37,643 bases of DNA from an uncultured Lachnospiraceae bacterium (GTDB lineage Bacteria > Bacillota > Clostridia > Lachnospirales > Lachnospiraceae). Shown here one piece after another: positions 13,356-35,096 of this stretch. The stretch spans positions 1-37,643 of the forward strand of contig CANQRU010000035.1 in the NCBI GenBank assembly GCA_947626395.1, written 5' to 3'. The stretch's first letter is position 1. The number at the start of each line of letters is the position of its first letter. The translations under genes and the position numbers were made by a program. The notes beneath the pieces are model-generated. The model saw nothing but the letters and a program-made list of their open reading frames with translations. It was not told the origin of the DNA and made no database searches.

Positions 13356-14894
13356 TTATGCTCTATTGGTACTTCCGTCTGTCAGCTTTATATCCGTATA
13401 CCAGTACCCGAAACGCCCGTCGCCGGCCGGCTGCATTTTCGAAAGGACGAAGTTCGGAAAGCCGAACATGGACGCCATGTATTTCTCGTTACTGTAGTAA
13501 TGCCCCGGGACGCCCAAAAGGAAGCGGACGACGCCGTCCGGGGACGACAGGCGGGCCAGGATCAGATAACGGTGGTTATAGTAGCCGTGGAGGAGGAAGC
13601 TGTTGTTGCCGTAAGCCCAGGTCTCGCGGGGAAGCAGGCCGATATCCTGGGGCTTGATCAGAAGAATCTCACAGCCGCCGTGATAGTCGAAGGCCTGGAT
13701 CTTCGGATAATGTCTCTGGAAATGGCTCCACAGGCGGCCGATGTCGTCCCGGTCCGGCTGACCGGACGGATCCGGGAGCGGAATCTGCGAAGCCGGCTGA
13801 CCCTCCGGGGACGGCGCAGTTCCGGACGGGGCAGAAGAGACAGGCTGGGCTGTGTCGCCGGAAGATAAATTCGTCGGGACAGGGCCCTCAGAGGGCTGTC
13901 GGGACGCTTCCTGCGGCTGCGGCGGGGCTTCCGGCTGCATCGCTTCCGGCTGCGGATAGACCGCAGATGCTTCCGGCTGCGGTACACGCGGAGCCTCTGC
14001 TTCCGGCTGCGTCGCTGCTTCTGATTGGGTTACACACGGGCTCTCCGGCACATACGGCCGCGGCTCCGATGTTCCCTGTTGTGGCGCGCGCTGAATCTCC
14101 GAAACCTGCGCCTGCGCCGCTGGCATCTCCGACTGCGGTATGTGCGGAGTCTCCGAAACCTGCACCGCCGGCATCTCCGACTGCGGTATGTGCGGAGTCT
14201 CCGGCTGCGGATATATCACCGGCGCTTCCGGCTGCCGCATCGGCGGCTCCTGTATCAGCGGTGCCTCCGGCTGTGCCGCCGGAACTTCCGTCCGCTTCGG
14301 CTGCAATGTCTCCTCCGGCTGCGCCGCAATCCCTCTCCCGACGGACTCCGTCACTGCCTTCCGCGCAGCCGGCTGCGCCGCGATCTCCCTCTCGATACTC
14401 TCCACCACCGATTCCCGCGGCGCGCCGTCCATTCCGGCAAGGCTTTTCTCCGTGATTTCCGCGGGAGGCAGCTTCTCCATTTCCTTCGCCTCGGCATTCG
14501 CCGCCGTAGCCTCCTCCAGCTCCACCGCCGCCGCATGGGCCACCGCGTCTTCCCAGATCGTCGTATAACAGCGCCACGCATCGTCTGTGCTGTGGATCGT
14601 CAGTCCATAGCACTGATCCATCCCCCGCCCGGAGCCGTCGACATTATCAAATGGAACCACCGCACGGAATTCGCCGCTGCCGCCCCGCAGAAAGATCCGC
14701 CCGACCAGGATCTCCTTGTCCGGCGTCAGCAGATAGACGCCTACGTCCTGATTTCCCACATAGATCCTGCGCACGCTCACCTGGATCTTGCACTGGCCGC
14801 CGCGGGCCTCCAGTTTGGCGAAACCGATATTGCGCCCTTTCACGCCGCCTTCATACGCATATATGTACGAGATCAATCTCCGATAATCCGACAT
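13356..14894 (-). CDS. Two-domain protein with a Pro/Gln/Glu-rich repeat linker
   Basis: A 512-residue protein with no signal peptide or membrane helix. I start at MSDYRRLISYIYAYEGG because AAGGAG lies 7 bases upstream; a frame-open ATG 27 bases earlier lacks a site. Residues 1-115 form a compact, beta-rich domain. Residues about 130-370 are a low-complexity linker made of repeated QPEAP, PHIPQSEMPA and QVSE units. Residues 375-512 form a second domain rich in aromatic residues (WAYGNNSFLLHGYYNHRYLI, LLGVPGHYYSNEKYMASMFG). I have seen this layout in Lachnospiraceae hypotheticals but cannot name a function. The stop lies 7 bases from the terminator hairpin shared with the NrdG-like gene. Confidence 0.75.
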   Translation of the reverse strand: MSDYRRLISYIYAYEGGVKGRNIGFAKLEARGGQCKIQVSVRRIYVGNQDVGVYLLTPDKEILVGRIFLRGGSGEFRAVVPFDNVDGSGRGMDQCYGLTIHSTDDAWRCYTTIWEDAVAHAAAVELEEATAANAEAKEMEKLPPAEITEKSLAGMDGAPRESVVESIEREIAAQPAARKAVTESVGRGIAAQPEETLQPKRTEVPAAQPEAPLIQEPPMRQPEAPVIYPQPETPHIPQSEMPAVQVSETPHIPQSEMPAAQAQVSEIQRAPQQGTSEPRPYVPESPCVTQSEAATQPEAEAPRVPQPEASAVYPQPEAMQPEAPPQPQEASRQPSEGPVPTNLSSGDTAQPVSSAPSGTAPSPEGQPASQIPLPDPSGQPDRDDIGRLWSHFQRHYPKIQAFDYHGGCEILLIKPQDIGLLPRETWAYGNNSFLLHGYYNHRYLILARLSSPDGVVRFLLGVPGHYYSNEKYMASMFGFPNFVLSKMQPAGDGRFGYWYTDIKLTDGSTNRA

Positions 14895-14965
14895 TCCTCT
14901 GCTCCTTCCCTTGCGCTGCATTTATTTCTTCTAATTAGCCATTACTATAATTTATGAAGAAACCA

Positions 14966-14994
14966 TTGCAAACATTCCGAAAAAATGGTACAAT
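14966..14994 (+). promoter_or_regulatory. Promoter of nagB
   Basis: TTGCAA (14966-14971) and TACAAT (14989-14994) with a 17-base spacer, about 50 bases before the nagB start. No clear operator was recognised. Confidence 0.72.
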
Positions 14995-15042
14995 CACCAT
15001 AAATATGGCCGAGAACAAAGTTTCCGAATGGAGGTATTACCG

Positions 15043-15774
15043 ATGAAAATTTACAGAACGACCGATTATCAGGAAATGAGCCGCACCGCCGCCATGATCC
15101 TGGCCGCGCAGATCCATCTGAAGCCCGACTGCGTGCTGGGTCTGGCCACCGGATCCACTCCGATAGGAACCTATGAAGAACTCGTCCGGCAGTATCAGGC
15201 CGGACACCTGGATTTCTCTCAGGTGAAGTCCGCCAATCTGGATGAATACCGCGGCCTTACCCGCGACAATGATCAGAGCTACTATTATTTCATGCAGGAG
15301 AACCTTTTTAGGCATGTGAACATCGATCCCGCGAATACATTTATCCCCGACGGCTCCCAGCCGGATCCGGACGCCGAGTGCAGCCGCTACGAGGCGGTCC
15401 TGGCGCAGCTTGGCGGCGTGGACCTGCAGATCCTGGGTCTGGGCCATAACGGCCATATCGGTTTCAATGAACCTGCGGACGCATTTGCGAAGGCCACCCA
15501 CTGCGTGGATCTGACGCGCAGCACCATCGAAGCCAACCGGCGTTTCTTCGAGAAGGAGGAGGATGTGCCCCGCCAGGCCTACACCATGGGCGTCGGCACC
15601 ATCATGCGCGCGAAGAAGATCCTTCTGCTGGTCAGCGGCGAGGGGAAAGCCGCCATTCTCCGGGAAGCGGTCGCCGGACCGGTGACGCCCCGCGTCCCCG
15701 CGTCCATCCTGCAGTTCCATCCGGATGTGACAGTAATCGCCGATGAAGCCGCGCTGGCGCAGCTTGACGCGTGA
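15043..15774 (+). CDS. nagB: Glucosamine-6-phosphate deaminase
   Basis: A 243-residue enzyme that converts glucosamine 6-phosphate to fructose 6-phosphate and ammonia, feeding amino sugars into glycolysis. The start is MKIYRTTDYQEM, with GGAGG 9 bases upstream; the ATG 15 bases earlier overlaps that site. Family motifs: phosphate-binding LATGSTPIGTY, SANLDEYRGL (general base Asp67) and LGLGHNGHIGFNEP, which holds catalytic His138 and Glu143. Asn136 replaces the Asp of the E. coli catalytic triad, as in other Firmicutes NagB. Length is that of the short Firmicutes form, lacking the E. coli allosteric C-terminus. It stands alone; no nagA is next to it. Confidence 0.95.
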   Translation: MKIYRTTDYQEMSRTAAMILAAQIHLKPDCVLGLATGSTPIGTYEELVRQYQAGHLDFSQVKSANLDEYRGLTRDNDQSYYYFMQENLFRHVNIDPANTFIPDGSQPDPDAECSRYEAVLAQLGGVDLQILGLGHNGHIGFNEPADAFAKATHCVDLTRSTIEANRRFFEKEEDVPRQAYTMGVGTIMRAKKILLLVSGEGKAAILREAVAGPVTPRVPASILQFHPDVTVIADEAALAQLDA

Positions 15775-15867
15775 TACATGTGCTGATACCGCCGTTCGTA
15801 CAATACAATACCGACACACTCCGGCCGCGCGGTCTTCGGAACCGTACGGCCGATTTCGCGTTAACAC

Positions 15868-15896
15868 TTGAATCCGGCCGGTATTTGCGATAAAAT
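15868..15896 (+). promoter_or_regulatory. Promoter of the zinc-ribbon membrane protein gene
   Basis: TTGAAT (15868-15873) and TAAAAT (15891-15896) with a 17-base spacer, about 38 bases before the ATG. Confidence 0.68.
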
Positions 15897-15933
15897 GTCA
15901 TCAGACGCTAATTTCTGACAGGGGGAGAACACT

Positions 15934-17031
15934 ATGGAATACAAGATCTGTCCGATCTGCGACCAGAAGATGACCAAACCGCATTACTGCGACCATTGCC
16001 GCCAGCGGATCCGCAATCCGCTGACCATCGATGTAAATTATTATCTGAACGAGCGGCATCCGGATGCGGAGCACGACTGCTCCTTCCACGACTATGACGA
16101 TCCCGCCTACAATATGCAGCCGAATACATGGCAGCCCTCCCGGCAGACCGTCTCCGGCCAGTCATCCGGACAGACCGTCTCCAGCCAGCCCGTCCGCAGG
16201 GCCGTGCCGAACCAGTCTGCCCGCCAGTCCGTACCCAACCAGCCCCGCAGAGCGGCCAGGACCGCGAAGACTTCCAGCGCCGGGGACCGGACCGCGCTCA
16301 TTGTTTCCGTGATCATAATCTTTGTCATTGCCGTGTCTGTGATATCCGTCTTTCTCTCTCTGTTCAACACCATGCTGAAGGGGACGTCCGAAGGCGGCGC
16401 ATTCCCCGGCGCAGTGTCCCTCTATCCGTCAGAGAACTCTCTCGACGAGCTTCTGGAACAATGGAATAACAATGCGGCCGGAGATCCCGAAGAAGATAAA
16501 TATGAGAACTGGGAACTCGACGAGGCTGACGTTATCGCCGCCGGAGTCAACTGCAGCAGCTACGGACATTTCCACGTCACCGGGGAACAGATGTCCGACG
16601 AACTGGTCGCTTTCCTCTCGGATATGGGATATTCCGTCGAGTCGGACGATGTCTTTACCTCCAATACCGAAGATTCCTACGGCTATACCTCTTTTAACCG
16701 GTATGACTCCTTCTATTTCGGCAGCGGAACTTCCATGGAAATTCGCTCCGACACCGCCACGAACCAGCTGCATTCCGTCAATATCTCCTGGTCCGGCGCG
16801 GATGAGACGATTCAGATCGCGGAGAAGATCACTGCCATTCTCCGGGCCTCCGGCGACTGGTCTCTGTCCGAAGCCGACACGGCCGCCTGGCTGGATGATC
16901 TGAAACGCCGTCTTCCGAAGCTCGAATACGAAGACGTCACCCCGGAAGAGTTAAGCTACAGCGTATACGTGTTCGTCTCTTCCTATGAATCGGACGGGTA
17001 TTATATTTCCTTTAGTAATTGGGGAGATTGA
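15934..17031 (+). CDS. Zinc-ribbon single-pass membrane protein, function unknown
   Basis: A 365-residue protein not recognised as a named family. The N-terminus carries a treble-clef-like zinc ribbon (Cys6, Cys9, Cys19, Cys22: CPICDQK and YCDHC). Residues 60-118 are a Ser/Gln/Val/Arg-rich disordered linker with repeated units (QTVSGQSSGQTVSSQ). One membrane helix follows at about 120-143 (ALIVSVIIIFVIAVSVISVF). Residues 150-365 are an acidic domain rich in Tyr, Ser and Asp, probably extracellular if the basic linker stays inside. A GGGGGAG site sits 6 bases before the ATG, and a strong hairpin terminator follows. Zinc-ribbon plus one helix plus an outer domain is common in Firmicutes sensor-like hypotheticals; the role is unknown. 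Confidence 0.75.
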   Translation: MEYKICPICDQKMTKPHYCDHCRQRIRNPLTIDVNYYLNERHPDAEHDCSFHDYDDPAYNMQPNTWQPSRQTVSGQSSGQTVSSQPVRRAVPNQSARQSVPNQPRRAARTAKTSSAGDRTALIVSVIIIFVIAVSVISVFLSLFNTMLKGTSEGGAFPGAVSLYPSENSLDELLEQWNNNAAGDPEEDKYENWELDEADVIAAGVNCSSYGHFHVTGEQMSDELVAFLSDMGYSVESDDVFTSNTEDSYGYTSFNRYDSFYFGSGTSMEIRSDTATNQLHSVNISWSGADETIQIAEKITAILRASGDWSLSEADTAAWLDDLKRRLPKLEYEDVTPEELSYSVYVFVSSYESDGYYISFSNWGD

Positions 17032-17070
17032 TAAGCAGACCGCGTACATTATCTTATAATAAAATTATCA

Positions 17071-17099
17071 GGGTGAGCGCCGGTTGTGGGCGCTCACCC
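17071..17099. terminator. Strong hairpin terminator after the zinc-ribbon gene
   Basis: GGGTGAGCGCC (17071-17081) and GGCGCTCACCC (17089-17099) form a perfect 11-bp stem with a 7-base loop, followed by TTTGCAGTTT on the plus strand. On the minus strand it is followed by an AT-rich tract, so it may also end the adhesin transcript. Confidence 0.85.
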
Positions 17100-17128
17100 T
17101 TTGCAGTTTATTCTCTGTTCTGCTCTAT

Positions 17129-17153
17129 GCGGGCCGGCCGATGGCCGGCCCGC
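17129..17153. terminator. GC hairpin between convergent genes
   Basis: GCGGGCCGGCC (17129-17139) and GGCCGGCCCGC (17143-17153) form an 11-bp all-GC stem with a 3-base loop, 52 bases past the adhesin stop on the minus strand. No clear T-run follows, so it may act as a pause or a 3' stabiliser together with the next hairpin. Confidence 0.55.
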
Positions 17154-17205
17154 ATCTCTTACTGTGATTCCGTTCTATCCGCGCGTCCTGCGCTCCGGAC
17201 AGGTC

Positions 17206-20200
17206 TTACGCGTCCTCCTCGTCCTTCTTCGAAGCCAGGATTCCGAACGCTCCCATCATTCCCAGGGCCAGCAGCCCGAACAGCGCTGCCGCTCCCACAG
17301 GCTTGTTGTCTCCCGTCATCGGGGCAAGGAATGCCAGCGGCACATCCTCATCCTCGATCGTCTCGAAGTTCGACAGTGGCGTCGGCTCGTCGCTGATCGT
17401 TATGATCTCCGGCGTCCCCGGGCTCTGCGGTACTTCGTTGTCAGGGATATTCGTTCCCGGACGGTCCGGCGTCGTTCCGCCGGTCGGCTGGTACCTGTAG
17501 TTCTCATACTCTACTACCGAGGTCCCCTCTATCTGGATCGTTCCTTCCGCAACAACCGCTGCCTGGCCGTTCCCGTTCAACGTCAACGTCGTCCGGTATC
17601 CGTCCGTGTCTGCCTCTATCTCTTCTACACGGTATCCTGCCCCGGCCGGGATGTCATGGAACGTGATCTCCTGGCCATGTCTCAATGTCACCGTCACCAC
17701 TCCGTCCGTGATCACTCCGTCCGCCGGCGCGTCCTCGCTTCCGTAGATGCTGCTTCCCGTGTAGCTGTAGCTTCCCTTCAGCGGGTTTCCTGACTGGTCT
17801 GTCAGCGTCACCGTGAAATGGAAATCCCTTCTCACTTCCCCGGCGTTGCCCGTCACCGTCTTGCTGATCCGCAGCTCGCCGGGCGCCGTGAAGCCGTTCT
17901 CGAACTCCGCGGCCGTCTCACTGGTATCCGGCGTCGGCCTGTTGCTGGTGTAGCTGTGGCTCTTCACCACCAGCTGGCTGTCCTCATCCTCTACCACCAC
18001 GGTCAGCGTCCAGCTCCTGTCGTCGTAGGTCCAGTACGGACTGTTACCCGCCGTCTCCTTCACCGTGAAGGTGTAGGTCCCGGCCTTCTTAAACGTGATG
18101 TCGTCGAACTTCGCCGTGCCCGCTCCGGTCACGGTCACTTTCCTCGCGCTCTCCGCTCCGCTGAACTCCGCTCCGCCTTCCGTGTTGTCCGCCGACGCAG
18201 TCAGTTCGAACTCGAACGTCTCATCCCACAGCGGCATGCCCGTGATCGTCTTCACGACCTCCGGCCCGTATACGGTCGGCTTCACCTGGTAGTCATTCAC
18301 GAACTCCGCGGCCGCCGTCTCTCCCACAAGGGTGATGTCCTCGTTCGTTACGGTGTCCTTCGTTGCGTAGGTGATGCTGTCCACCTTCAGCTCGCTGGCA
18401 TGGTCAGACACCACGAGCGTCAGCGTCCAGACGTTCTTATCATAGGTGTAACCGGGCAGGGAGTCGTTCGTCTCCTCGATCCTGAACTCATAGGTCCCGG
18501 CCTTGTTAAACGTGATCTCTCCGAAACTGTCGGTCGTCACGCTCCCGTTCGCCGTCCCCAGCACTTCCGCCGTGGTCTTCTCCGGCATCGTCAGGCTGTC
18601 ACCGTAATCCTCTGCAGCTTCCAGCGTGAAGTGGAAATACTTGTGCTCCGGACGGATCTCGCCCGTCACTTCCTTCGTTACCTTTGGCGCGTATTCCACC
18701 GGTACCACTGTGTAGACATTGGTAAATACCGTCTCGAACTGCTTCGTGTTGTCGATCTCGTTCGTCATCGGCTCCACTGTCACTTCCTGGCCGCCCTTTG
18801 TGAAGCTCACATCCGTCACTTCCAGCTGGCTGTCATTGTCCACGACCTCTACAGTCATCTCAAACGGCTCGGTGTCGTAGGTGTAGCCCGGGATCCCGTT
18901 GTCCTTCTCTGCGATCTCGAACGTATAGGTCCCGGCCGCCGTGAAGGTGATGTCCCCGAAGCGTCCGCTGTTCTCGGAACCCTCGTCGCTCCTGATCACC
19001 ACGGTGATCTCAGTCTCATCCGGAAGCGTCGCGCCTTTCTGATCGTCCGCCTGCGTAATGTCGAACAGGAACTTATACTCCTGTCCTGCCGGGCGATCGT
19101 CTCCCTCGACCGTCTTCTTGATGCCGGCGTTCAGCTTTGTCTCGGTCACATGATACTGGTTGGTAAACTTTGCGGACTCGGTACTCTTCTCAGTCCCGGC
19201 CGTATAGGTGGCAGAGTCGACTTTCAGCGCATTTCCGGTATCCACCACTTCAACAACCAACGTCCATACAGTGCCGTCAAAGGTATAGCCTTTGTAGTTT
19301 TCAGCGGCATCATCCGGCTTAACCTCTTTAATCAAGTACTTATATGTGCCGGGCTTATTATACGTAATCTCCTCAAAACTTGCATAGCCCAGGGCCTCTC
19401 CTGCCTTAAGCTGCAGTCTGGCAGTACCGATCACCTCTCCCATGGTAAACCTGCCATTCTCTGCCTGAACCGCTTCCAGGCTGAAGACGAATTCCTTCTC
19501 CCTGGCTGTTTCAGAACCCTCGATGACCTTGGTAATCTGCGGCGCGTAGGAGACTTCTGTAGTATCATACTTATTGGTGAACTCAGCAGCATCGTTCGTC
19601 GAATCGCCATTTCTGTAGGTGACCGCCGCTCCCAGCCGGCCCTTGTTATCCGTTACTTCCACGGTTACCAGCCAGATCGTACTGTCATAAGTAAACCCTG
19701 CGGTATCGCCTCTCTCTTCACGGATACGGTACTTATATGTGCCGGCCTTTTCATATTTCAGCGGAGCGAAACTCACACTGCCTTCGGTTGTTCCCGCCTC
19801 CACTCCGGGTTTCGTGTCATTGGCCTCCAGGGTGACTGCCTGATTCTCCAGCACTTCCCCCATACTGAACCGGCCTGAACTTCCCAGATCTTTCTCCAAT
19901 ACGAATGTGAATGTGGTATCCTCCGGATAAGTGTAGCCGCCCTGTTCCGCAGCTGCATCAATATGTTTCTTAACATCCAGCACCACTTCCGTAGGCACCG
20001 GCTTATAGGTGTTGGTGAATTCAAATGTGTAAGCCGTATCGTCAGCAGCTGCCGGACCGCCGGCCGTGAATCTTCCGACCTTCTTTTCTACCGTTACGGT
20101 CTTCTGCAGATTGCCGTCCTTCGCCGCGACATCCTCTACTACGACCGTAACAATATACTCCGTCGTATCATAGGTGTAGCCGGTAGGATCCGTATCGCCG

Positions 20201-23200
20201 CGCACCTCGGAAATCGTGAATTTATAGGTTCCCGGTTCTTTGAATGTGACTGTATCAAACGACTTTGTTCCAGAAACGGGTCCATTCTTAAAAGTCTTTC
20301 CTTCTTCAGGAGTAACCTTCAGCTCTACAGTTTGTGGTTCCTCAACAACCTCAGCCACACCATCCGGGCCTTCTGTCTGAGTTAACGTGAAGGAGAACGT
20401 CTGTTCATAGCCTTCAGGAATGTCATGGCCGTTCGTATCCATCGTCTTCTCCACGCTGGGAGTCCAATAGGTGTCAACGTAATCAAATGTGTTGGTAAAG
20501 GTAAATCCAGAAACAACCAAAGTTCCCTCATTATCAGCATAAGTCGTCAACTGACCATCCACATCTTTGACCACAACAGTTATATCCTGCACTGCCGCAA
20601 CGCCACCTACATAACCAGCCAAATTCGGATTTTCTTCTGCAATTTGGAATGTGTATGTGCCGGCCTTTTTAAATTTAACCTCCCTGAAGGTATCGTTCCA
20701 GTCATTGCTATTGCTTACGACGGCCTTCGTATCAGGTATCTCAACATCAGCTGCATTTCCACTCGTCAGAGACAGATCAAACGTAAACACTCTCTCTGTC
20801 TTTTTCGGGTCTTCGTCGCCGTTAAATTGCTTTGTTACAGACGGAGCCCAGGTGGCGGATTCAGGAGCATATGTGTTGGTAAACTCAGCACCATCTCCTC
20901 CATCGAAACTGATCGCTGTAATCAACGTTCCCTTGTGGTCATCCGTTACTGTAACAGTCAATCTACTCGTATTCGTATCATACGTATAACCCTTTTCATC
21001 TCCCGAATCTTCGGTAATATTAAAGTTATACGTGCCTGGCTTGCTAAACGTTATTTCATCAAATGAACCTGTAAAGGGTCCCACACCGTTGCCTGCGGGA
21101 ACTTCCACGGTGGCACTCATGCTGTCCGTTAATACCTTCGGATTGTCAGTCTCAGCCTCAGCCAAAGTGAATGTGAACTCCTTAGCTAACGGCCGTTCAT
21201 GGCCACCCGTGACATTTTTAGAAACCGTTGGTGTATAGGTGGTCGGACGAGGCTGATATGTATTAGTGAATGCGGCTGCGTCACTATTGCTTACGCCATC
21301 TTTCGTATATGTTTTGCTGTCAACACGCAGGTTCCCATTTCCGTCATCACTAACAACTACGTTTACCGTCCATACACTTGGGTCGTAAATGTAGTGTAAA
21401 TTATCGTTTTGTTCCGTTATTGTAAATGTGTAGTCGCCAGCTTTTGTAAACGTAATCCCGCTAAACAAGGCATCATCTGTACCATTCGTTGTCACAGAAG
21501 TCGTGGGCGGATACGTTACATCACTCGGACCATTCAGTGAAAACGTGAATGTTTGCTCTTCCGGCTGCTCGTAACCGCCGTAAAGGACTGTCTTTTTTAC
21601 CTTGAGATCAGTAGAGACCGAGTTTACATTGTAAGTATTTGTAACATTTACCGTGCTGCCGCCTGCCTGAATTGTTCCTCCGACCAGTCCCGAAGCCGTA
21701 TACCCACCATAGGAATCCTCCGTAATTGTATAACTGGTTCCAACAGGATAATCCTTCGGTGAGGTCCAGCTGCCATCATGCGCCAATGAGAACTCATACG
21801 TATCTCCTCCAATTGTCACATGGAATTGGAAAGGTTTTGTAGTATCAGCAATCCCTGTTCCGTTTTGCACAGTCTTTTTGACCGTCAAATTGCCGACCTT
21901 TTTCTCATTATACACTTTAGCATTGTTACTATACTTCGTCGTCCTATCAGCTGCCTCATACCCATCCGGTGCTTTTGTTTCGACAAAATAAAACTCGCTT
22001 GCGTCTGCACCATTATTGACTTTGAATGTGTAGGAGACCACGCCATTCGTATCGCTCGTAAGGCCACTCGCGACCAGCGTATCCGCTGTACCATTCTTGC
22101 CCTTACGGTACAATCTGAACTCGGCACCATTAACAGGAGTTGTTGTCTCGGTACCATTAAGCTTTTCGTATTTCGTCAGGCTAAGTGTCAGTTCAGTATT
22201 TGTTATTTTAATGTCTTTGGAAGCTGAAACAGGAGCTTGGCCCTTACCGATGCCGATGAGAGCTTGGCTTTTAGTTTTATCTTTGGGAGTATAGTAATAA
22301 ACAGCATTTTTTACACTCTGCGTTCCGCTCAGTGTCGCCGTAATTGTGTCGCCTGAATTAATTCCTGTAACATTTTCAAAAACGGCGTACTGATCGCCAG
22401 CATTAAGTTTTTTTGTTCCCCGAGTGGTGTTGCCCTTCTTTATTGTCACTGTTATATCGCTGCCCGAAGCCACTTTAGCATTTAATCCAACTCGGATTGT
22501 ATACGATCCTCCCTTTCCCGCATAGTCTGCAGTCATACTTCGTATAACCACATCAGGACTCGAACTAGAGGCCGTGCGAGACAACAGATAATTCTGTATC
22601 TGTTCAATATTATAACTAACCTGGCTTGTATTAGTATTGTACTCTGCTGTCACAGTCCCAAAGCGTTTTTCACCACGTCTGGCGTAACTATCTAAGTTAG
22701 TAGTAGGTACAATTCTCTTGAATGTTCTACGCTCACCGTTCGTGATGCTCCAGATTGCTGACTGAGTGGCAGATATAATCTGTCCCAGATCAACTGCACC
22801 CTGAATCGTATATCCTGCATCCACCATCGGATCAATAATGTCAGTTATATTAGATATATAAGGGTACGAATTCTCAACAACTGCACGGAGTTTATTCAGC
22901 TCATGTTGGGTCTTACCAGCAGCAAACCAAGAATTTTCGAGGTTATCACGGCGATAGGCACATTGACTACTACTGCCACCCGTTGCTGTGATTCCTGCAT
23001 CGGCGCAATATACATATACATAATTTTGCGCAGTTTTATTGTAGAGCCTGTAAATCATTGCAACCGTACCGTTAGAACTCCTTGAGCTGCTGAGATAGAA
23101 TGGACTGACGAGATGAAGCCTTTTTGAATTACTATTAGGCAGCACAAACTTATACTCCCCAGTTCCGTCAGACTTCAAATCATTTGCATTGGGTTCCCTT

Positions 23201-24684
23201 GCGGAACCTGTCTGTGTAGGAGCCGGATAATACGAATATTTATTGCCTTTACTCGTCGTTCGTGATTGGGCTCTAACATTCAGCGGCGCAATCCCCACGC
23301 CTATCACCACATCCCACATGGCGACAGCTACTTCTCCGCTCTCGTCCACATAGCCGTAAGCGATCTGGCACACGCCGTTGTCTACCTTGACGGTCATACC
23401 GCCATCAGCGGTCAGGGAGATCACATTCTCATCCAGGGATTTCCATACGCCATCCGTGGGCAGGGTGACGTTCACGCCATACGGCGGTTCCTCGGCCATA
23501 GCTTCAATATGGGACTCACCGAAGTTCGGATTCTCATATCCAGCCTCCACAGCCAGCTGCATCACGTCGTTATACGGCTCGTCAGAGTAGACCGTCACAC
23601 GGCTGCTCTCCACTCTCACCAACCAGCTCAGTTCGGTTCCGTCTTCCATCGGATATTCATTTTCGGCGTCTTCCGCAGCCGCCGGTTCATCGTTCTCTTC
23701 CGGTTCAGAAACGTTCTGCTCATCTGCGGGAGCCTCAGTCGTCCGAGGCGCAGTTTCCGTCTCAGAGGGAGTGGTATCCTCTGCAGCATCAACAGAAGGC
23801 TCCTCCGCCTTATCTGCATTCTGCGGCGTAGCCTCTCCGACAGTCTCTTCCCCGGAGTCGCCTGTCTCATCGCCTGCATTCTCTTCGTTGGCAGGCTGAG
23901 CCTCATCCACGATCGCTTCGCCTTCTGCGTCAGCTTCGTCGCCAGACCGCTCCGTTTCATCTACGATCGCTTCGCCTTCCGCGTCAGCTTCGTCACCAGA
24001 CTGCTCCGCTTCATCTACGATCGCTTCGCCTTCTGCGTCAGCTTCGTCGCCAGACTGCTCCGCTTCATCTACGACCGCTTCGCCTTTCACGGCAGCTTCA
24101 TCTTCAGACTGTTCGGTTTCCGTCGCCACAGTATCGGCAGGCGTTTCCGCTGCTTCATCCGTTACCGCTTCCGGCTCGGCCATCGGCGCTTCATAGGTGA
24201 AGGTCACCGTCGCGCGGCCGATGGACTTGACGAGCGCGTCGCCGTCGTCATACATGGCCAGGACATCGGTATTATCCGATGACCAGGTTCCGGTAAGTTC
24301 TTCCGCCAGGGTGCTGTACTCGCTATCCTGAAGAAGGACCTGACCAAGGGTCACGCCTTCCTGATCGCTGTACTTATAGGTATCCCATCCGCCGCTCCAC
24401 ACATACCGACCGGCTTCTTCATCGAATTCCGCCCTGGGCAGAATATCCAGCACAAGGCCTTCTGACGGCTCTGTCTCTTCAGGACCCTGCGTCAGATCCG
24501 GCTCTGCCGTATCGTCATTGTTCTGGCCCGGGAACTGCAGCAGTGTGCCGTTGCTCGGGGTGGCGATACCGGTTGCGTACACCGTCTGCACATTCGCCGC
24601 GATGTTGGAGAACACCAGCACGAGCGCCATGAAACCGGCCAGCAGACGGGATTTCTTCTTGTTAAATGTCCACATTTCCTTCAT
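17206..24684 (-). CDS. Giant thioester/isopeptide cell-wall adhesin
   Basis: A 2492-residue surface protein, probably sortase-anchored and binding host or neighbour surfaces. In order: signal peptide (KKKSRLLAGFMALVLVFSNI ending near VYATG); an Ig-like segment (to about 170); an acidic region with 18-residue repeats; a second Ig-like segment (about 345-465); a thioester domain (about 475-700) with Cys560 in YVYCADAG and Gln641 in SATQSAIWS, the pair that forms the internal Cys-Gln thioester in TQXA adhesins; Cna-B-like domains (about 830-1020; FYFVETKAPDGY); nine FctA-like pilin repeats (about 1020-2265), each with a KxxK-type lysine, a TITE-type Glu and a terminal FTNTY-type Asn for Lys-Asn isopeptide bonds; a last beta domain; and a tail with APMTGD, a hydrophobic helix and KKDEEDA. 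An AAGGGAG site precedes the ATG. Confidence 0.9.
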   Translation of the reverse strand: MKEMWTFNKKKSRLLAGFMALVLVFSNIAANVQTVYATGIATPSNGTLLQFPGQNNDDTAEPDLTQGPEETEPSEGLVLDILPRAEFDEEAGRYVWSGGWDTYKYSDQEGVTLGQVLLQDSEYSTLAEELTGTWSSDNTDVLAMYDDGDALVKSIGRATVTFTYEAPMAEPEAVTDEAAETPADTVATETEQSEDEAAVKGEAVVDEAEQSGDEADAEGEAIVDEAEQSGDEADAEGEAIVDETERSGDEADAEGEAIVDEAQPANEENAGDETGDSGEETVGEATPQNADKAEEPSVDAAEDTTPSETETAPRTTEAPADEQNVSEPEENDEPAAAEDAENEYPMEDGTELSWLVRVESSRVTVYSDEPYNDVMQLAVEAGYENPNFGESHIEAMAEEPPYGVNVTLPTDGVWKSLDENVISLTADGGMTVKVDNGVCQIAYGYVDESGEVAVAMWDVVIGVGIAPLNVRAQSRTTSKGNKYSYYPAPTQTGSAREPNANDLKSDGTGEYKFVLPNSNSKRLHLVSPFYLSSSRSSNGTVAMIYRLYNKTAQNYVYVYCADAGITATGGSSSQCAYRRDNLENSWFAAGKTQHELNKLRAVVENSYPYISNITDIIDPMVDAGYTIQGAVDLGQIISATQSAIWSITNGERRTFKRIVPTTNLDSYARRGEKRFGTVTAEYNTNTSQVSYNIEQIQNYLLSRTASSSSPDVVIRSMTADYAGKGGSYTIRVGLNAKVASGSDITVTIKKGNTTRGTKKLNAGDQYAVFENVTGINSGDTITATLSGTQSVKNAVYYYTPKDKTKSQALIGIGKGQAPVSASKDIKITNTELTLSLTKYEKLNGTETTTPVNGAEFRLYRKGKNGTADTLVASGLTSDTNGVVSYTFKVNNGADASEFYFVETKAPDGYEAADRTTKYSNNAKVYNEKKVGNLTVKKTVQNGTGIADTTKPFQFHVTIGGDTYEFSLAHDGSWTSPKDYPVGTSYTITEDSYGGYTASGLVGGTIQAGGSTVNVTNTYNVNSVSTDLKVKKTVLYGGYEQPEEQTFTFSLNGPSDVTYPPTTSVTTNGTDDALFSGITFTKAGDYTFTITEQNDNLHYIYDPSVWTVNVVVSDDGNGNLRVDSKTYTKDGVSNSDAAAFTNTYQPRPTTYTPTVSKNVTGGHERPLAKEFTFTLAEAETDNPKVLTDSMSATVEVPAGNGVGPFTGSFDEITFSKPGTYNFNITEDSGDEKGYTYDTNTSRLTVTVTDDHKGTLITAISFDGGDGAEFTNTYAPESATWAPSVTKQFNGDEDPKKTERVFTFDLSLTSGNAADVEIPDTKAVVSNSNDWNDTFREVKFKKAGTYTFQIAEENPNLAGYVGGVAAVQDITVVVKDVDGQLTTYADNEGTLVVSGFTFTNTFDYVDTYWTPSVEKTMDTNGHDIPEGYEQTFSFTLTQTEGPDGVAEVVEEPQTVELKVTPEEGKTFKNGPVSGTKSFDTVTFKEPGTYKFTISEVRGDTDPTGYTYDTTEYIVTVVVEDVAAKDGNLQKTVTVEKKVGRFTAGGPAAADDTAYTFEFTNTYKPVPTEVVLDVKKHIDAAAEQGGYTYPEDTTFTFVLEKDLGSSGRFSMGEVLENQAVTLEANDTKPGVEAGTTEGSVSFAPLKYEKAGTYKYRIREERGDTAGFTYDSTIWLVTVEVTDNKGRLGAAVTYRNGDSTNDAAEFTNKYDTTEVSYAPQITKVIEGSETAREKEFVFSLEAVQAENGRFTMGEVIGTARLQLKAGEALGYASFEEITYNKPGTYKYLIKEVKPDDAAENYKGYTFDGTVWTLVVEVVDTGNALKVDSATYTAGTEKSTESAKFTNQYHVTETKLNAGIKKTVEGDDRPAGQEYKFLFDITQADDQKGATLPDETEITVVIRSDEGSENSGRFGDITFTAAGTYTFEIAEKDNGIPGYTYDTEPFEMTVEVVDNDSQLEVTDVSFTKGGQEVTVEPMTNEIDNTKQFETVFTNVYTVVPVEYAPKVTKEVTGEIRPEHKYFHFTLEAAEDYGDSLTMPEKTTAEVLGTANGSVTTDSFGEITFNKAGTYEFRIEETNDSLPGYTYDKNVWTLTLVVSDHASELKVDSITYATKDTVTNEDITLVGETAAAEFVNDYQVKPTVYGPEVVKTITGMPLWDETFEFELTASADNTEGGAEFSGAESARKVTVTGAGTAKFDDITFKKAGTYTFTVKETAGNSPYWTYDDRSWTLTVVVEDEDSQLVVKSHSYTSNRPTPDTSETAAEFENGFTAPGELRISKTVTGNAGEVRRDFHFTVTLTDQSGNPLKGSYSYTGSSIYGSEDAPADGVITDGVVTVTLRHGQEITFHDIPAGAGYRVEEIEADTDGYRTTLTLNGNGQAAVVAEGTIQIEGTSVVEYENYRYQPTGGTTPDRPGTNIPDNEVPQSPGTPEIITISDEPTPLSNFETIEDEDVPLAFLAPMTGDNKPVGAAALFGLLALGMMGAFGILASKKDEEDA
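23909..24124 (-). repeat. 54-base tandem repeats coding an acidic linker
   Basis: Units of 54 bases begin at 23909, 23963, 24017 and 24071. Copies 1-3 are nearly identical and the fourth has diverged. They encode EAIVDEAEQSGDEADAEG-type 18-residue repeats. They keep frame, so copy-number change would alter stalk length only. Confidence 0.85.
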
Positions 24685-24745
24685 TTCCTTTCTCTCCCTT
24701 CAAGATTTTTCCTTTTTTCATCCTTTTTTATCTATATAAAGCTTA

Positions 24746-25237
24746 CTATGGAGCTGTCTGCGGTTCTTCCGGGTCCGCCCCCGGGGGCGCCTGTGAACTT
24801 TCGTCCAGAGCCCCGTCGATCAGCTTCAACAGTTCCAGGGCGCTGCGGAAATATTTCCGCTCCTGCTTCTCGGCCCAGACCACCTCGCCCTGCCAGGTGG
24901 CGTTCTGTCTGTATTTGACGCGGACGATGAAGGTTCCGATATCGCCTGTCCTGTCCTTGATACGCGCCTCGTCCATGTATGCTGTCTCCTCCTCTCGCTC
25001 TAACGCCGAAGTCTTCGGCTCCCCATTTCCAAAGTGCCGGACTTGCGTCGACCGTTGGGGGAAATCCCATCTGTCGTAGAGTTCATCCATCTCCTGCACC
25101 AGTTCCATGGTGGTGGAGAAATGGATCGGGCCGGTCCGGTACTGGTGCCAGATCCTTCCGGAGTAGTCGCGGCCTGTGACCTTGTCTACGCCGATACAGA
25201 TCAGGTTGCGCGCGTGCATCGCCAGCTGCGCACCCAT
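24746..25237 (-). CDS. Conserved hypothetical protein upstream of the adhesin
   Basis: A 163-residue soluble protein with no signal peptide and no domain I can name. It begins MGAQLAMHARNLICIGVDKV, with AGGAGG 8 bases before the first ATG; a second ATG lies at residue 7. Notable segments are YSGRIWHQYRTGPIHFSTTM, ELVQEMDELYDRWDFPQRS and the C-terminal FIVRVKYRQNATWQGEVVW followed by YFRSALELLKLIDGALDE. This pattern recurs among Lachnospiraceae proteins as far as I recall. The tail is Pro/Glu-rich. It ends 62 bases before the adhesin start on the same strand, so both may share a transcript. A role in adhesin expression is only a guess. Confidence 0.7.
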   Translation of the reverse strand: MGAQLAMHARNLICIGVDKVTGRDYSGRIWHQYRTGPIHFSTTMELVQEMDELYDRWDFPQRSTQVRHFGNGEPKTSALEREEETAYMDEARIKDRTGDIGTFIVRVKYRQNATWQGEVVWAEKQERKYFRSALELLKLIDGALDESSQAPPGADPEEPQTAP

Positions 25238-25416
25238 AGAACCTCCCTCCTCTCCTTTTGATGGTTTTGGCTTAAGTTTAACAGGTGGAGTGTCTCAGGA
25301 TTTGACTCATGGATGGCAGATTTGGAAAAAATTTTATTTTTTTCGCATTATTTTTCTTGCGGGAGCGGGAGGATGGAAAAAACGAGAAAAAACGGACGCC
25401 GGAGAACCTGAAGGCG
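25238..25416. other. AT-rich intergenic region
   Basis: No gene is supported. It holds the purine-rich ribosome site of the 163-residue gene at its left end and T/A tracts around 25325-25360. I saw no convincing promoter for the minus-strand gene. Confidence 0.4.
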
Positions 25417-25445
25417 TTGAAAGATCTGATTCAAAATGATATAAT
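25417..25445 (+). promoter_or_regulatory. Promoter of the small coiled-coil gene
   Basis: TTGAAA (25417-25422) and a perfect TATAAT (25440-25445) with a 17-base spacer, 30 bases before the ATG. Confidence 0.8.
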
Positions 25446-25475
25446 TTAGAATATATCTATCGGAGGTACGAGGAG

Positions 25476-25709
25476 ATGGAACATGAGGGAGTAAATGAGA
25501 TCGTGGACGATGAACTGATCCTTGATATCGACATCCTGATGGCGGAAGCGGACCGGCGGCAGGAAGAGGCTGTGGCGGCGGCCGTGGCGGAAGCGGCTAG
25601 GCGACAGGAAGAGGCCGTGGCGGAAGCAGAAGCCACCCAAAACAAACTGATCGCCAAACTCCGTTCGCTCGGCGTTTCGGAAGAAGAGATCGCTGAACTT
25701 ACCAGATAA
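25476..25709 (+). CDS. Small coiled-coil protein, resembles a transposase-family tail
   Basis: A 77-residue, highly charged protein. Residues 20-60 form a heptad-like helix built from two copies of an ADRRQEEAVA/AARRQEEAVA unit. The C-terminus KLIAKLRSLGVSEEEIAELT has the pattern seen at the end of PD-(D/E)XK (Rpn/YhgA-type) transposase-family proteins, where a charged helix precedes a short LxxLGxSxEEIAxLT helix. GGAGG lies 9 bases before the ATG, and a strong promoter and terminator frame it, so it looks expressed as it stands. It could be a domesticated remnant or an independent small protein; the link rests on pattern memory only. Confidence 0.65.
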   Translation: MEHEGVNEIVDDELILDIDILMAEADRRQEEAVAAAVAEAARRQEEAVAEAEATQNKLIAKLRSLGVSEEEIAELTR

Positions 25710-25745
25710 TACAAAAGACATGGCATATTTACCGGCTGACGGATG

Positions 25746-25770
25746 GGGCCCCGCGGATTCCGCGGGGCCC
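25746..25770. terminator. GC-rich hairpin between convergent genes
   Basis: GGGCCCCGCGG (25746-25756) and CCGCGGGGCCC (25760-25770) form an 11-bp stem with a 3-base loop, followed by AAATAATTCATT on the plus strand. It lies between the small coiled-coil gene and the BTAD regulator. Confidence 0.75.
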
Positions 25771-25863
25771 AAATAATTCATTCCTGTTCTGTTCCCTGTC
25801 CGGGCATTCCGACCGATATCTGAATCGTCCGGATCCCCCGGCTTCGTGGCGCTTCCGGCTTCG

Positions 25864-27084
25864 TCACGCATTCCCTTCCACTTCCCGGAACCCAAGCAGC
25901 GAATCCATGCTGTAGCTCAGCTCGCCGGCGATACCGGGGCGCTTCTTCCAGGCGCGGTAGAGACGCTCGAAGGCGCGGACGCCGTTCTCGCGGCCGGTGC
26001 CGCTTAAGATGATCAGGTACTGGCAGCGGCTGTACTTGGTATAGATATCGCCTTTGCGGAAGACGCGGGAGATGGTCTCCTTGAGGATCTCCATCTGCCG
26101 CTCTTCTTCCTGCCGCTTCTCTGACTCTGGGCGTCCCGCGCCGCCGCGGGATGACCAGGTGCACAGCAGAAGGAAGAGGGACTGTCCGGTCCGCTCCGCG
26201 ATCCGGGACAGGATCTGACAGGAGTCGATGAAATCCGGATAATAGCAGTAATAGGCGCCGTCGTCCGGGTCACCGCGAAGCGACTCGGCGATATCGGAGA
26301 GCCGCCGGACGGGACGGAGCGAGTTCTTCTCGATGATCTCCAGCCGGTCCTTATATTCCGTACTTGGCATGATCCCCAGTTCTTCATCGTAGAGCCGTTC
26401 TGTATTCTGATAGACGGCGTAAGCGCCGTTATAATCCTTCAGCGCGATCAGGCAGTCGATCTCCGCCAGCTGCCAGGACTCGAACGGGAACAGCAGCGAC
26501 GCGTTATGATAGACGTCCCTGGCCTTCAGAAGGTTCCCCTGCTGCCTGTACTCTTCTCCGAGCAGCTCCGCCGCCTTGAAATACAGCCGCTTCAGCTCCT
26601 GGTCCTTCTGGATCACCCACAGCTCCGTGCAGTATTCCTCCAGAAAATCCCCGGTGTAAAGTTCCATGGCGTCTTCCAGAAGGCCAAGCCGATTCTCCAT
26701 GCCGCTCTCGTTCTCCAGCGCCTGGATCGTCTTCTGCTCGAACATCAGGGCGTCTACTTCCACAGGAAAATCCGCCTCGAAGCGGGCGAAGCCTCCTTCC
26801 AGATTCACGGTGGCCCCTTCCATCCCCCAGACGGTAAGCTGCTTCTTCAGGCGGTACAGCAGATTATTCAGATTACGGTTGGGATCGGCGCCGCGCTCCT
26901 GACCCTGGCCGTAAATATTGCCGATCAGTTCCCGCTTCGGGAGTCCCTTGTCACCGGCCAGAAGGAGCATGGCAAACACCTGCAGCACTTTCGTGCTGCT
27001 GCCGCGCATGATATTCACCGGCTGACCGTCAAATTCCATGGAATATGCGGAAAACATATGTACCCGCAGACCCTCTCTTAACAT
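25864..27084 (-). CDS. BTAD/SARP-like transcriptional regulator with degenerate GGDEF-like C-terminus
   Basis: A 406-residue regulator. I start at the ATG giving MLREGLRVHMFSAYSMEFDG, which has GAGG 5 bases upstream; a GTG 51 bases earlier has weaker support. Residues 1-95 are an OmpR/SARP-type winged helix (LQVFAMLLLAGDKGLPKREL, then NLNNLLYRLKKQL). Residues about 105-250 match a bacterial transcriptional activator (BTAD) TPR-like domain (VDALMFEQ, YTGDFLEE, YNGAYAVYQNTERLYDEELG). Residues 275-400 look like a worn GGDEF/nucleotide-cyclase fold (KGDIYTKYSRCQYLIILSGT) without a GGDEF motif, so no catalysis is expected. A 65-residue HTH gene precedes it by 55 bases on the same strand, transcribed from a consensus promoter that the divergent repressor could control. 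Confidence 0.82.
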   Translation of the reverse strand: MLREGLRVHMFSAYSMEFDGQPVNIMRGSSTKVLQVFAMLLLAGDKGLPKRELIGNIYGQGQERGADPNRNLNNLLYRLKKQLTVWGMEGATVNLEGGFARFEADFPVEVDALMFEQKTIQALENESGMENRLGLLEDAMELYTGDFLEEYCTELWVIQKDQELKRLYFKAAELLGEEYRQQGNLLKARDVYHNASLLFPFESWQLAEIDCLIALKDYNGAYAVYQNTERLYDEELGIMPSTEYKDRLEIIEKNSLRPVRRLSDIAESLRGDPDDGAYYCYYPDFIDSCQILSRIAERTGQSLFLLLCTWSSRGGAGRPESEKRQEEERQMEILKETISRVFRKGDIYTKYSRCQYLIILSGTGRENGVRAFERLYRAWKKRPGIAGELSYSMDSLLGFREVEGNA

Positions 27085-27139
27085 GCGATCCTCTTTCTGA
27101 AACGCCTTTCGGCGTACTTCAACGATAGTTTGCACGCCT

Positions 27140-27337
27140 TTAGTCCGCTACCAGGTGCAGTTCCCTCATGATCAGGTCCCTGGTCTTCTCACTCTGGTTC
27201 TTGCCGGATATCACTTCACACACCGTCGCTTCAGATTTATTGATCCGGCCCGCAAGCTCCTTAACAGTCATATCCTGCGCGAAGAGCGCCATCTTGATCT
27301 CCATCCCCTCCGCAGTCGGCTTCCTGGTACGCCTCAT
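27140..27337 (-). CDS. Small XRE-type helix-turn-helix protein
   Basis: A 65-residue protein that is almost entirely one helix-turn-helix domain: MTVKELAGRINKSEATVCEVISGKNQS (about residues 23-49), with the second and third helices ELAGRI and EATVCEVI. The start is the ATG with GAGGAG 8 bases upstream; an ATG 39 bases earlier in frame lies in the leader and lacks a site. The N-terminus (RRTRKPTAEGMEIKMALF) resembles those of small regulators found in Lachnospiraceae mobile or phage-like regions. It is first in a two-gene unit with the BTAD regulator. Confidence 0.78.
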   Translation of the reverse strand: MRRTRKPTAEGMEIKMALFAQDMTVKELAGRINKSEATVCEVISGKNQSEKTRDLIMRELHLVAD

Positions 27338-27416
27338 AAAAACATCTCCTCTTTTTCGCTTGAAGTATGTTTTCAAGTACTATATAATCTATTCGATGAC
27401 TAATACATTCGGTTTC

Positions 27417-27445
27417 ATTATATTCGCAAATTTACGCAATGTCAA
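27417..27445 (-). promoter_or_regulatory. Consensus promoter of the HTH-BTAD unit
   Basis: On the minus strand TTGACA (27440-27445) and TATAAT (27417-27422) are 17 bases apart, a perfect sigma-A consensus. Such strength suggests that it must be held down by a repressor. Confidence 0.85.
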
Positions 27446-27466
27446 CATTGCAAGTCGAAAATTTGC
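27426..27466. promoter_or_regulatory. Nested dyad operator between divergent regulators
   Basis: An inner dyad GCAATGT-CA-ACATTGC (27436-27451) covers the -35 of the minus-strand promoter. It is flanked by an outer inverted pair GCAAATTT (27426-27433) and AAATTTGC (27459-27466). The layout fits a dimeric HTH repressor, probably the divergent S24-like protein or the small HTH protein. Binding is inferred. Confidence 0.65.
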
Positions 27467-27520
27467 TACCTTTTGCTCCCAAAGTAGCATCTTCGACATC
27501 ATACTAAGGAGGTAACTGCT

Positions 27521-28291
27521 ATGAAAATGGTTGAGCGGATCAAAGCCGCGGCCGCCAGGCAGGGATTTACCCTTGCCCAGCTCGAACGGTCGCTGGGCTT
27601 TGGGGCGCGTACGATTTATAAATGGGATAAGAATCTTCCATCTGTAGACAAGGTCCTGGCCGTCGCAAATTTTCTCCAGGTATCTTTCTCCTGGCTTGTG
27701 ACCGGATCCTGTGAGAATGACCAGCAGCCGCTGGCCGCGCGTTTTGAACTTCTGTCCGAAACGGACAAAGAAAAGGTCGAACATTTTATGGAGATCAGTC
27801 TGATCGGAAATACCGGCAGTTCGCCGGCGTATAATAATTCAGCCGCATCGGAAAAGAACCCGTCCTGGGTGCCGGTACTGGGCTATGTGTCCTCCCGTTC
27901 CATGACCGCGGGCATCCACTGCCTGGGGTATACGCAGACCAGCCTTGGGGCTGATTACGCGCTGATCATGGATGACAGCACCATGGAACCGCTTTTCTAT
28001 CCGAACGAGTATGTTTTTCTGAAAAATGAACGGCTTCCGGCCGACGGAGATATCGTCGTGGCCAACCACGCACAGAGGCTGATGTGCAGGCAGTACCGGG
28101 AGAAGGGGAACCGCTGTTCCCTGCGGCCTTTAAATCCGGCCGGTCCGGCCGTGCCGGAAGCTTCCGGGAATGAAACTTCCGAGAATAACGGATGGACCGA
28201 CCCGGTCATAATGGCGGAAATCGTAGGCAAAGTTCTGCTTGACCGCAGACAGCAGGATATCGTCGCTCTTTTTTTTGCAGAAAAAATCTAA
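27521..28291 (+). CDS. HTH-S24 (LexA/CI-like) repressor with altered protease site
   Basis: A 256-residue regulator. Residues 1-65 are an XRE-type helix-turn-helix (FTLAQLERSLGFGARTIYKW), and residues 115-250 an S24/LexA-like domain (WVPVLGYVSS; DYALIMDDSTMEPLFYPNEY; GDIVVANHAQRLMCRQY; LRPLNPAG). Ser153 of DDSTMEP sits where the nucleophile of GDSMxP is expected, but with an extra Thr before Met. Exactly 37 residues on, the usual Ser-Lys spacing in LexA and UmuD, there is Arg190 instead of Lys. The Ala-Gly cleavage pair is also not seen after GYV (Ser-Ser-Arg instead). Self-cleavage is therefore doubtful. AAGGAGG lies 8 bases before the ATG. It is divergent from the HTH-BTAD unit across the dyad operator. 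Confidence 0.85.
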   Translation: MKMVERIKAAAARQGFTLAQLERSLGFGARTIYKWDKNLPSVDKVLAVANFLQVSFSWLVTGSCENDQQPLAARFELLSETDKEKVEHFMEISLIGNTGSSPAYNNSAASEKNPSWVPVLGYVSSRSMTAGIHCLGYTQTSLGADYALIMDDSTMEPLFYPNEYVFLKNERLPADGDIVVANHAQRLMCRQYREKGNRCSLRPLNPAGPAVPEASGNETSENNGWTDPVIMAEIVGKVLLDRRQQDIVALFFAEKI

Positions 28292-28334
28292 TGTATTCGA
28301 ATTTTCGTCCTGCCGTCCTTCCGCGCCAGACATA

Positions 28335-28363
28335 AAACCGCCGCCCTGACGGGCCGGCGGTTT
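28335..28363. terminator. Bidirectional terminator between the repressor gene and rsmI
   Basis: AAACCGCC and GGCGGTTT pair, with an inner CCC-tgac-GGG stem. On the minus strand TTTTATG follows, which suits rsmI; on the plus strand TTTCCTATTCC follows, which suits the repressor gene. Confidence 0.8.
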
Positions 28364-28370
28364 CCTATTC

Positions 28371-34779: not shown

Positions 34780-35010
34780 ATGAGAGTTATCGAGTTTAAA
34801 ATGGAACGTCAGGGGCTTGTAAACATCGGTGATGAAGTTGAGATCACAGCCCATGAAGCGCTCAGCGGCACCAGCTATATCATTGAGCCGGCGGTAGCCA
34901 TGTCCGGCTGCTATAAGGGCCGGGACCGCCTGAAATCGACCCGCGGTATCGTACGTGACATCAAGCAAAATGACCGCGGTTTTTATGTTGTGGCAGAATT
35001 TGACGAATAG
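34780..35010 (+). CDS. Small hypothetical protein
   Basis: A 76-residue protein beginning [20 protein letters not shown], with AAGGAGG 9 bases before the ATG. No domain is recognised. It is probably a small beta-rich cytosolic protein: short alternating hydrophobic stretches ([28 protein letters not shown]), no signal peptide and a single Cys. It is divergent from the decarboxylase and about 160 bases upstream of the collagen-like gene. Start site and promoter make it a real gene; its role is unknown. Confidence 0.72.
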
Positions 35011-35096
35011 ACCGGTCCGGCATGAAAACCGAACCGAACATCCGGTGCAAACAGTTCGCGGCGCAAAAGGAGGACGAACCAAACCTGTATTTGGGA

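Follow-up and report, generated by a model that had tools for sequence, protein, structure and literature searches.

A predicted thioester-headed fibrillar adhesin with nine FctA modules in one chain from an uncultured Lachnospiraceae bacterium, and the apparent replacement of its gene in a sister species

Locus organization and domain architecture

The stretch of DNA analyzed here (the window) spans the full length of contig C35 (37643 bases), part of the draft genome of an uncultured Lachnospiraceae bacterium (3.46 Mb, 87 contigs, 98.5% complete). A single uninterrupted frame at 17206-24684 on its minus strand encodes a protein of 2492 amino acids, in which scans with Pfam and NCBIfam profiles, together with inspection of both ends, revealed the following order: an Ig-like and acidic N-terminal part, a thioester domain (TED), SpaA, DUF5979, nine FctA modules, DUF7601, and a sorting-signal-like end. 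The TED was matched at residues 558-702 with 26.6 bits (cut-off 22), and FctA in nine stretches above the gathering score (E 1.8e-140, 461.6 bits). The NCBIfam model strep_pil_rpt likewise matched in nine stretches, which bears out the first-pass annotation in its claim of nine FctA modules fused in one chain, and the NCBIfam TQXA domain matched under its cut-off. No ester-bond domain was listed in the Pfam scan of this protein at E up to 1. The features of the locus are as follows:

17070..17100, minus strand: terminator-like hairpin directly past the adhesin stop (1 found against a mean of 0.3 in shuffles)
17206..24684, minus strand: giant putative adhesin, 2492 aa, one open frame
17209..17493, minus strand: C-terminal linker and sorting-signal-like end (LAPMTGD, hydrophobic stretch, charged tail), from sequence; common to paralogues
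17494..17889, minus strand: DUF7601 module R10, residues 2266-2397 (best Pfam stretch 2269-2388; triad candidate K2275/E2355/N2395)
17890..21630, minus strand: nine FctA modules R1-R9, residues 1019-2265 (Pfam, NCBIfam, alignment; modelled fold of R8-R9)
21631..21897, minus strand: DUF5979 module R0, residues 930-1018 (best Pfam stretch 933-1018; triad candidate K937/E989/N1016)
21898..22167, minus strand: SpaA (prealbumin-like) domain, residues ~840-929 (best Pfam stretch 845-916; triad candidate K838/E902/N926)
22168..23289, minus strand: predicted thioester domain of class II type, residues 466-839 (Pfam TED, alignments, model and fold matches)
23290..24573, minus strand: Ig-like segments flanking an acidic repeat tract, residues 38-465 (sub-cut-off Pfam, composition, tandem repeat)
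24574..24684, minus strand: signal-peptide-like N-terminus, residues 1-37 (by eye; 28 of 37 positions invariant in five paralogues)
24746..25237, minus strand: orf163, small gene directly upstream of the adhesin; relatives upstream of other giants
25864..27135, minus strand: BTAD-domain regulator gene (Pfam BTAD, E 2.5e-9)
27521..28291, plus strand: HTH/S24 repressor-like gene, divergent to the locus (Pfam)

The small gene orf163 has no Pfam or NCBIfam match, and its two halves resemble each other when inspected by eye. Of the seven other FctA giants in the same genome, five have a relative of it upstream; relatives were also found in 13 of 20 loci from related genomes, in 12 of these at, or at most 0.4 kb from, the start of the giant frame. 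An invertible promoter in the 24500-28400 region was considered and found unsupported, the five inverted repeats detected there being short or imperfect. Elsewhere in the window, a collagen-like repeat protein is encoded at 34955-36799 on the plus strand (Pfam Collagen, E 3e-40; BclA_C, E 2e-9, just under cut-off); collagen-like proteins with a BclA_C-type end are of a kind seen on spores. A frame of 686 aa, antisense to the FctA repeats (17818-19878, plus strand), is probably a by-product of codon bias.

Isopeptide triads in the stalk

A profile built from the FctA repeats of the window matched the adhesin nine times in one set; a smaller set gave ten matches. The nine repeats are only 26-42% identical in pairwise comparisons, yet their Lys, Glu, and Asn residues are invariant in all nine. 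In a broader alignment of 174 FctA matches in 24 ORFs from this genome and its relatives, the same Asn, Lys, and Glu columns ranked highest in conservation among 120 that were well filled (1.00, 1.00, and 0.99; the next reached 0.98). All 123 matches with the three columns filled carry Lys, Glu, and Asn, a count that leans towards the window's repeats, as the profile was built from them; the remaining 51, partial matches, were set aside, one of them with Ala in the Glu column. The conservation of these residues is more than chance.

The repeat profile (A1) also finds the streptococcal pilin Spy0128 (3b2m, E 1.3e-10) with two matches, one strong (41.8 bits) and one weak (6.0 bits), so that the earlier description of streptococcal pili as carrying one FctA domain per subunit was inexact. 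In the alignment, the profile Lys and Asn fall on chain positions 23 and 155 of 3b2m and, by hand count, the Glu on 104, which an offset of 13 turns into 36, 168, and 117, respectively. The PDB entries 3gld and 3gle are titled as the E117A and N168A mutants, and Lys36 is the Lys of the Spy0128 triad.

An AlphaFold model of the R8-R9 pair (34 sequences, with both triads invariant) reached a mean pLDDT of 94.2, and its fourteen best rows in the comparison with known structures were streptococcal pilins of FctA/FctB type. The superposition on 3b2m runs from model residue 6 on residue 29 through model residue 274 on residue 305, so that, with ungapped ends, Lys13 would fall on 36 and Asn272 on 303. 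As far as this superposition reaches, the predicted geometry speaks for the first-pass annotation and not for a separation of Lys, Glu, and Asn, the outer ends of both triads lying in register with Spy0128; the FctA modules are modelled in a CnaB-like pilin fold. The fold alone is no proof of the bond, because FctB shares it, yet 5ttd is titled with an engineered isopeptide; it is therefore the triad, rather than the fold, that carries the isopeptide argument. The Lys-Asn crosslinking that the first-pass annotation had read into the repeats is in good agreement with the invariant triads and the Spy0128 register.

Its count of nine isopeptide-bonded stalk domains holds for the FctA modules and falls short of the twelve candidate modules obtained with SpaA, DUF5979, and DUF7601, each of which offers one further triad candidate (the Lys of the SpaA candidate, K838, lies just ahead of the domain). 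The nine FctA modules and these three candidates lead to a prediction of approximately twelve isopeptide bonds. Modules of this kind are 4-5 nm long, and a rod computed on that basis would measure approximately 50-60 nm.

The predicted thioester head

Cys560 is located within the motif YVYCADAG, where the YC at 559-560 fits the thioester [YFL]C motif. Together with the Pfam TED match, this sustains the earlier proposal of a thioester head at this residue. The domain does not form the very N-terminus of the protein: approximately 460 residues precede it. Across 17 aligned TEDs, the column of the thioester Cys holds Cys in every row, and Gln807, within SQALIG, aligns with Gln in 17/17. Two further Pfam TED matches (in G032 and G043) were excluded from this alignment, the script having found no TQxxW motif in them.

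The AlphaFold model of the TED was of low confidence (mean pLDDT 57.7, five-sequence alignment), and the eight best rows of its comparison with PDB structures were thioester proteins; with rows less than 1 Z unit apart counted as equal, 6fwy was tied with unrelated ones, and both class II rows (6fwv and 6fwy) had an rmsd above 8. In this low-confidence model, beta-sandwich strands at 248-335 lie between a helix at 222-236 and a strand at 344-361. This agrees with a TED fold of class II type for the head, in which a beta-sandwich insert separates helix 3 from the Gln strand. By sequence, no TED was found in PDB with profile A3, and the best 60 of the 106 phmmer matches obtained with the TED alone were chains named as antibodies or light chains.

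The identity of the head to its relatives ranges from 24% to 32%. Of 397 family genomes sampled, 3 gave relatives in a single-sequence search, and of 26 genomes of the genus, 6 did so in a profile search, own genome included in both; the few relatives recovered by the former indicate a head that is either rare or too divergent. Low identity, along with the differences in heads among the giants, would also suit a structural or degenerate TED that folds without binding covalently, in a giant serving mainly as a spacer or as a noncovalent adhesin. We consider this unlikely, given that the Cys and the late Gln are retained in 17/17 aligned TEDs while the remainder diverges.

N-terminal region, anchor, and sortases

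The first 37 residues combine a basic start, a hydrophobic core, and a VYA end, resembling a signal peptide when judged by eye. Between this region and the TED lie two Ig-like segments, one matched below cut-off by Pfam Ig_NUP210_16th at 108-163 and the other recognized by eye, and an acidic tract at residues 169-346 (178 residues, 37% Asp+Glu). The DNA of the N-terminal part also contains a 54-bp tandem repeat at 23903-24111. At the opposite end, LAPMTGD is followed by a hydrophobic stretch and a charged end; the motif is not LPXTG, and the NCBIfam model LPXTG_double matched it below cut-off (E 1.4e-4).

Two sortase genes were detected in the genome by PF04203, both matching the class B model TIGR03064, one of them under cut-off. 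TIGR01076 found no pilin-polymerizing (class C) sortase at E up to 1 in this 98.5% complete draft. The Pfam scan of 20 window ORFs showed nothing resembling a pilin or a sortase, and no pilin operon with several subunits was seen there, the neighbors being orf163, the BTAD and S24 regulators, nagB, rsmI, and other housekeeping genes. Since only two class B sortases were found and the neighbors are not pilin genes, the chain itself is probably the rod, as opposed to a subunit of a pilus. FctA is the fold of streptococcal backbone pilins and TEDs occur in Cpa-type pilus tip proteins, features that a tip or shaft subunit of a true sortase-assembled, multisubunit pilus would share; with the two class B-like sortases as the only ones found in the genome and no pilin-like product in the vicinity, we rejected this reading as very improbable. 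The pre-assembled pilus-like rod of the first-pass annotation therefore finds backing in the single chain and the sortase content, but it is not special to this adhesin, considering the spread of FctA in the family and the known protein class addressed below.

Giant proteins in the genome and family

The genome contains 41 FctA matches on eight contigs, distributed over eight giant frames of 1971-3819 aa. A ninth giant, on contig C3 (L020:8539-15999, minus strand), has an APMTGD end and a stalk that appears DUF11-like by eye, and one of the class B sortase genes (L020:7377-8279, minus strand) directly adjoins it; hence, the genome holds at least nine giants. TED motifs were found in three of the eight FctA giants (C35, C59, and C9). 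The signal-peptide region and the anchor are common to five (C35, C59, C9, C16, and C34), whereas head and stalk are not.

Third-codon identity between C16 and C34 was 0.78-1.00 for blocks within the first 420 residues and 0.25-0.45 for those of 429-1843, and it climbed from 0.55 to 0.98 across the last 360 residues. For the giant of the window (C35), high values were largely confined to the end in comparisons with C16 (up to 0.93) and C34 (up to 0.90), with 0.73 in the first block; there was also one internal block (residue 1732 on) of up to 0.75 against C16; compared with C59, values reached 0.80 at the start and 0.87 at the end.

In six giants (L013-L018; C5, C16, C34, C9, C15, and C59), a contig end lies approximately 0.2-1 kb past the end of the giant, a pattern suggesting that assembly was halted by a repeat immediately downstream. 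Because of this proximity, the shared giant ends may have affected assembly; in the window contig, the giant is central and both flanks are present.

Multi-FctA giants are not special to the genus. FctA matches occurred in 19 of 61 relatives and in 76 of 299 sampled family genomes (own included in each), with at least 21 in a single frame of 4600 aa. The genomes compared are mostly drafts, some of them metagenome-derived. The closest named relatives found, at 36-38% identity, are three loci of uncultured Lachnospiraceae isolates designated "Lapin", and we infer that the species lives in rabbits.

The same site in related genomes

The flanking gene PSP1 was found in 23 of 26 genomes of the genus, own included, and 15 of the 22 non-own loci were examined. 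A giant occupies the rsmI side in five of these 15 (G004, G012, G013, G020, and G008), accompanied in all five by relatives of orf163 and the BTAD gene at 33-94% identity. Three sites are empty (G009, G018, and G021), with rsmI adjoining nagB or its neighbor, and seven were left unscored, their other flank being unrecognized (G002, G001, G025, G019, G014, G023, and G007). Matches to the S24 gene are present in G012 and G013, and none was found in the G004 locus or at the three empty sites. In G009, DNA similarity stops at 17013 and restarts at 28374, so that the whole module with both regulators is missing. No signature of site-specific insertion was seen at the empty sites, and no duplication was evident by eye. 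In G020, a TED and nine FctA modules are encoded at the same site. The same-locus giants of G013 (L072:6031-13890, plus strand) and G008 (L081:6228-13715, minus strand) have no obvious sorting signal and end alike (DIDERLV and DVDDRFV), and the frame next to each of them has a start resembling that of a small secreted protein.

In the sister species G004, PSP1 is 98%, BTAD 94%, and orf163 92% identical to the genes of the window, and DNA similarity extends with short breaks from 13378 to 17379, ending inside the last 57 codons of the adhesin, and restarts at 24801, inside orf163; the intervening 7.4 kb differs. The G004 giant is a frame of 2597 aa with three matches to our FctA profile and no TED match. 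Its body resembles the giants of C15 (43% over 817 residues) and C36 (39% over 791 residues) from the genome studied here, contains Pfam DUF11 (and VWA below cut-off), and is matched by the giant of the window in its last 116 residues only (BLASTP, E up to 1e-3). Hence, an entirely different giant gene appears to have taken the place of the whole adhesin gene at this position of the chromosome. With the regulator, orf163, and the anchor sequence shared, block replacement seems more probable than independent gain of a module.

On a wider scale, we tentatively propose, as a possibility somewhat less likely than not, that the giant repertoire is exchanged as blocks genus-wide. The orf163 and signal-peptide region on one side and the anchor region on the other may act as recombination arms, and the head-plus-stalk bodies, thioester heads included, might be swapped between loci and species under the resident BTAD regulator, which would shuffle the set of covalent grips available to a gut bacterium. 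The alternative to block exchange is that each species gained and lost whole modules independently at one favored site.

Bond partner of Cys560 and proposed function

The thioester had initially been assigned to Cys560 and Gln641. The cysteine is retained, whereas the partner is now predicted to be Gln807, because Gln641, within TQSAIW, corresponds to the TQxxW-motif Gln on the helix, which is reportedly dispensable for the bond, and Gln807 is aligned with Gln in 17/17. According to the accessible portions of two studies (PMC4450167 and PMC6194298), mutagenesis of the Cpa TED indicated that this helix Gln is not essential for the thioester, and the bonding Gln sits on a later strand in both TED classes; judging from the alignment ends, Gln807 would be in register with Gln267 of CpTIE. 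A Cys560-Gln641 bond, favored by the equal invariance of Gln641 in a TED alignment whose wider set was itself picked by the TQxxW motif, was rejected on this mutagenesis and the TED alignment, and we regard it as having next to no chance of being correct.

With a probability of roughly 0.8, we propose that the protein is a wall-anchored fibrillar adhesin of the TIE (thioester, isopeptide, ester domain) type, with a Cys560-Gln807 head and a crosslinked rod of approximately twelve modules. The computed support comprises domains, triads, folds, conservation, and the finding of no other sortase; bond formation, covalent adhesion, the ligand, the anchoring enzyme, and regulation are inferred. After export, the head would form its internal thioester, and attack on that bond by a nucleophile of a host or dietary ligand, probably a lysine amine, would attach the cell covalently to its target. 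In each of approximately twelve CnaB-like modules (SpaA, DUF5979, nine FctA, and DUF7601), a Glu-catalyzed Lys-Asn isopeptide would lock the first and last strands, rendering the rod inextensible and protease-resistant. One or other of the class B sortases would probably link the LAPMTGD signal to peptidoglycan. The gene would operate within a locus of BTAD regulator, orf163, and giant, the last differing, it seems, as a block from that of the sister species.

Comparison with known systems

Chains that combine a TED with isopeptide domains constitute a described class, the TIE proteins, as outlined in the accessible parts of PMC4450167 and PMC6194298. For BaTIE, SaTIE, EfmTIE86, and CpTIE, these parts describe a distal-side TED, a tandem crosslinked stalk, and a sorting signal, to which correspond in the adhesin the predicted TED, the stalk with its candidate crosslinks, and the sorting-signal-like end; class II TEDs of this class also have the beta-sandwich between helices and Gln strand seen in our low-confidence model. 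The adhesin departs from TIE proteins in its stalk, composed mostly of FctA, in the approximately 460 residues before the TED, and in having no ester-bond domain listed; it is also far longer than BaTIE, for which three isopeptide domains are described. Another known system is the 7651-residue adhesin of Mobiluncus mulieris (PMC10619420), for which the accessible text gives a predicted TED (Cys529-Gln712) and 51 crosslinked repeats. Both are single giant chains in which a predicted TED is combined with numerous Ig-like modules of the crosslinked kind, the 51 modules of M. mulieris being ester- or isopeptide-bonded and the approximately twelve predicted here of isopeptide type.

Spy0128, the major pilin of Streptococcus pyogenes, and FctB share the FctA fold with the adhesin, and Spy0128 also the Lys-Glu-Asn triad; unlike these sortase-polymerized subunits, the adhesin has all nine of its FctA modules on a single chain, and a polymerizing sortase was not found. 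Multi-FctA giants of the same family resemble it in their long FctA arrays (frames of approximately 2000-5600 aa), but their heads are mostly not of its TED type. A survey of isopeptide domains, in its accessible portion, describes tandem isopeptide stalks as common in fibrillar adhesins (PMC12617251); giants such as this one fall outside the survey, because its database stops at 1280 residues. Among the literature matches listed, in which subscription journals are mostly uncovered, no title dealt with the giants of this genus or the BTAD-orf163-giant locus.

The protein class and design are thus already known, with longer members; what merits closer attention is the apparent exchange at the locus. 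In the papers considered here, members of the class come mostly from pathogens, and the adhesin represents an extreme single-chain form in a lineage of uncultured Lachnospiraceae. With the partner corrected to Gln807, its head is directly testable. In group A Streptococcus, M-fibril and T-pilus genes are recombinationally exchanged, according to the accessible part of PMC11078000. Recombination would likewise diversify surface-protein genes at the present locus, but here the genes concerned would encode giant adhesins of a single chain, accompanied by orf163 and a BTAD regulator, and the differences are seen between species instead of strains. If block replacement at this regulated locus holds true in strains, it would provide a defined system for how commensals change their covalent attachment targets.
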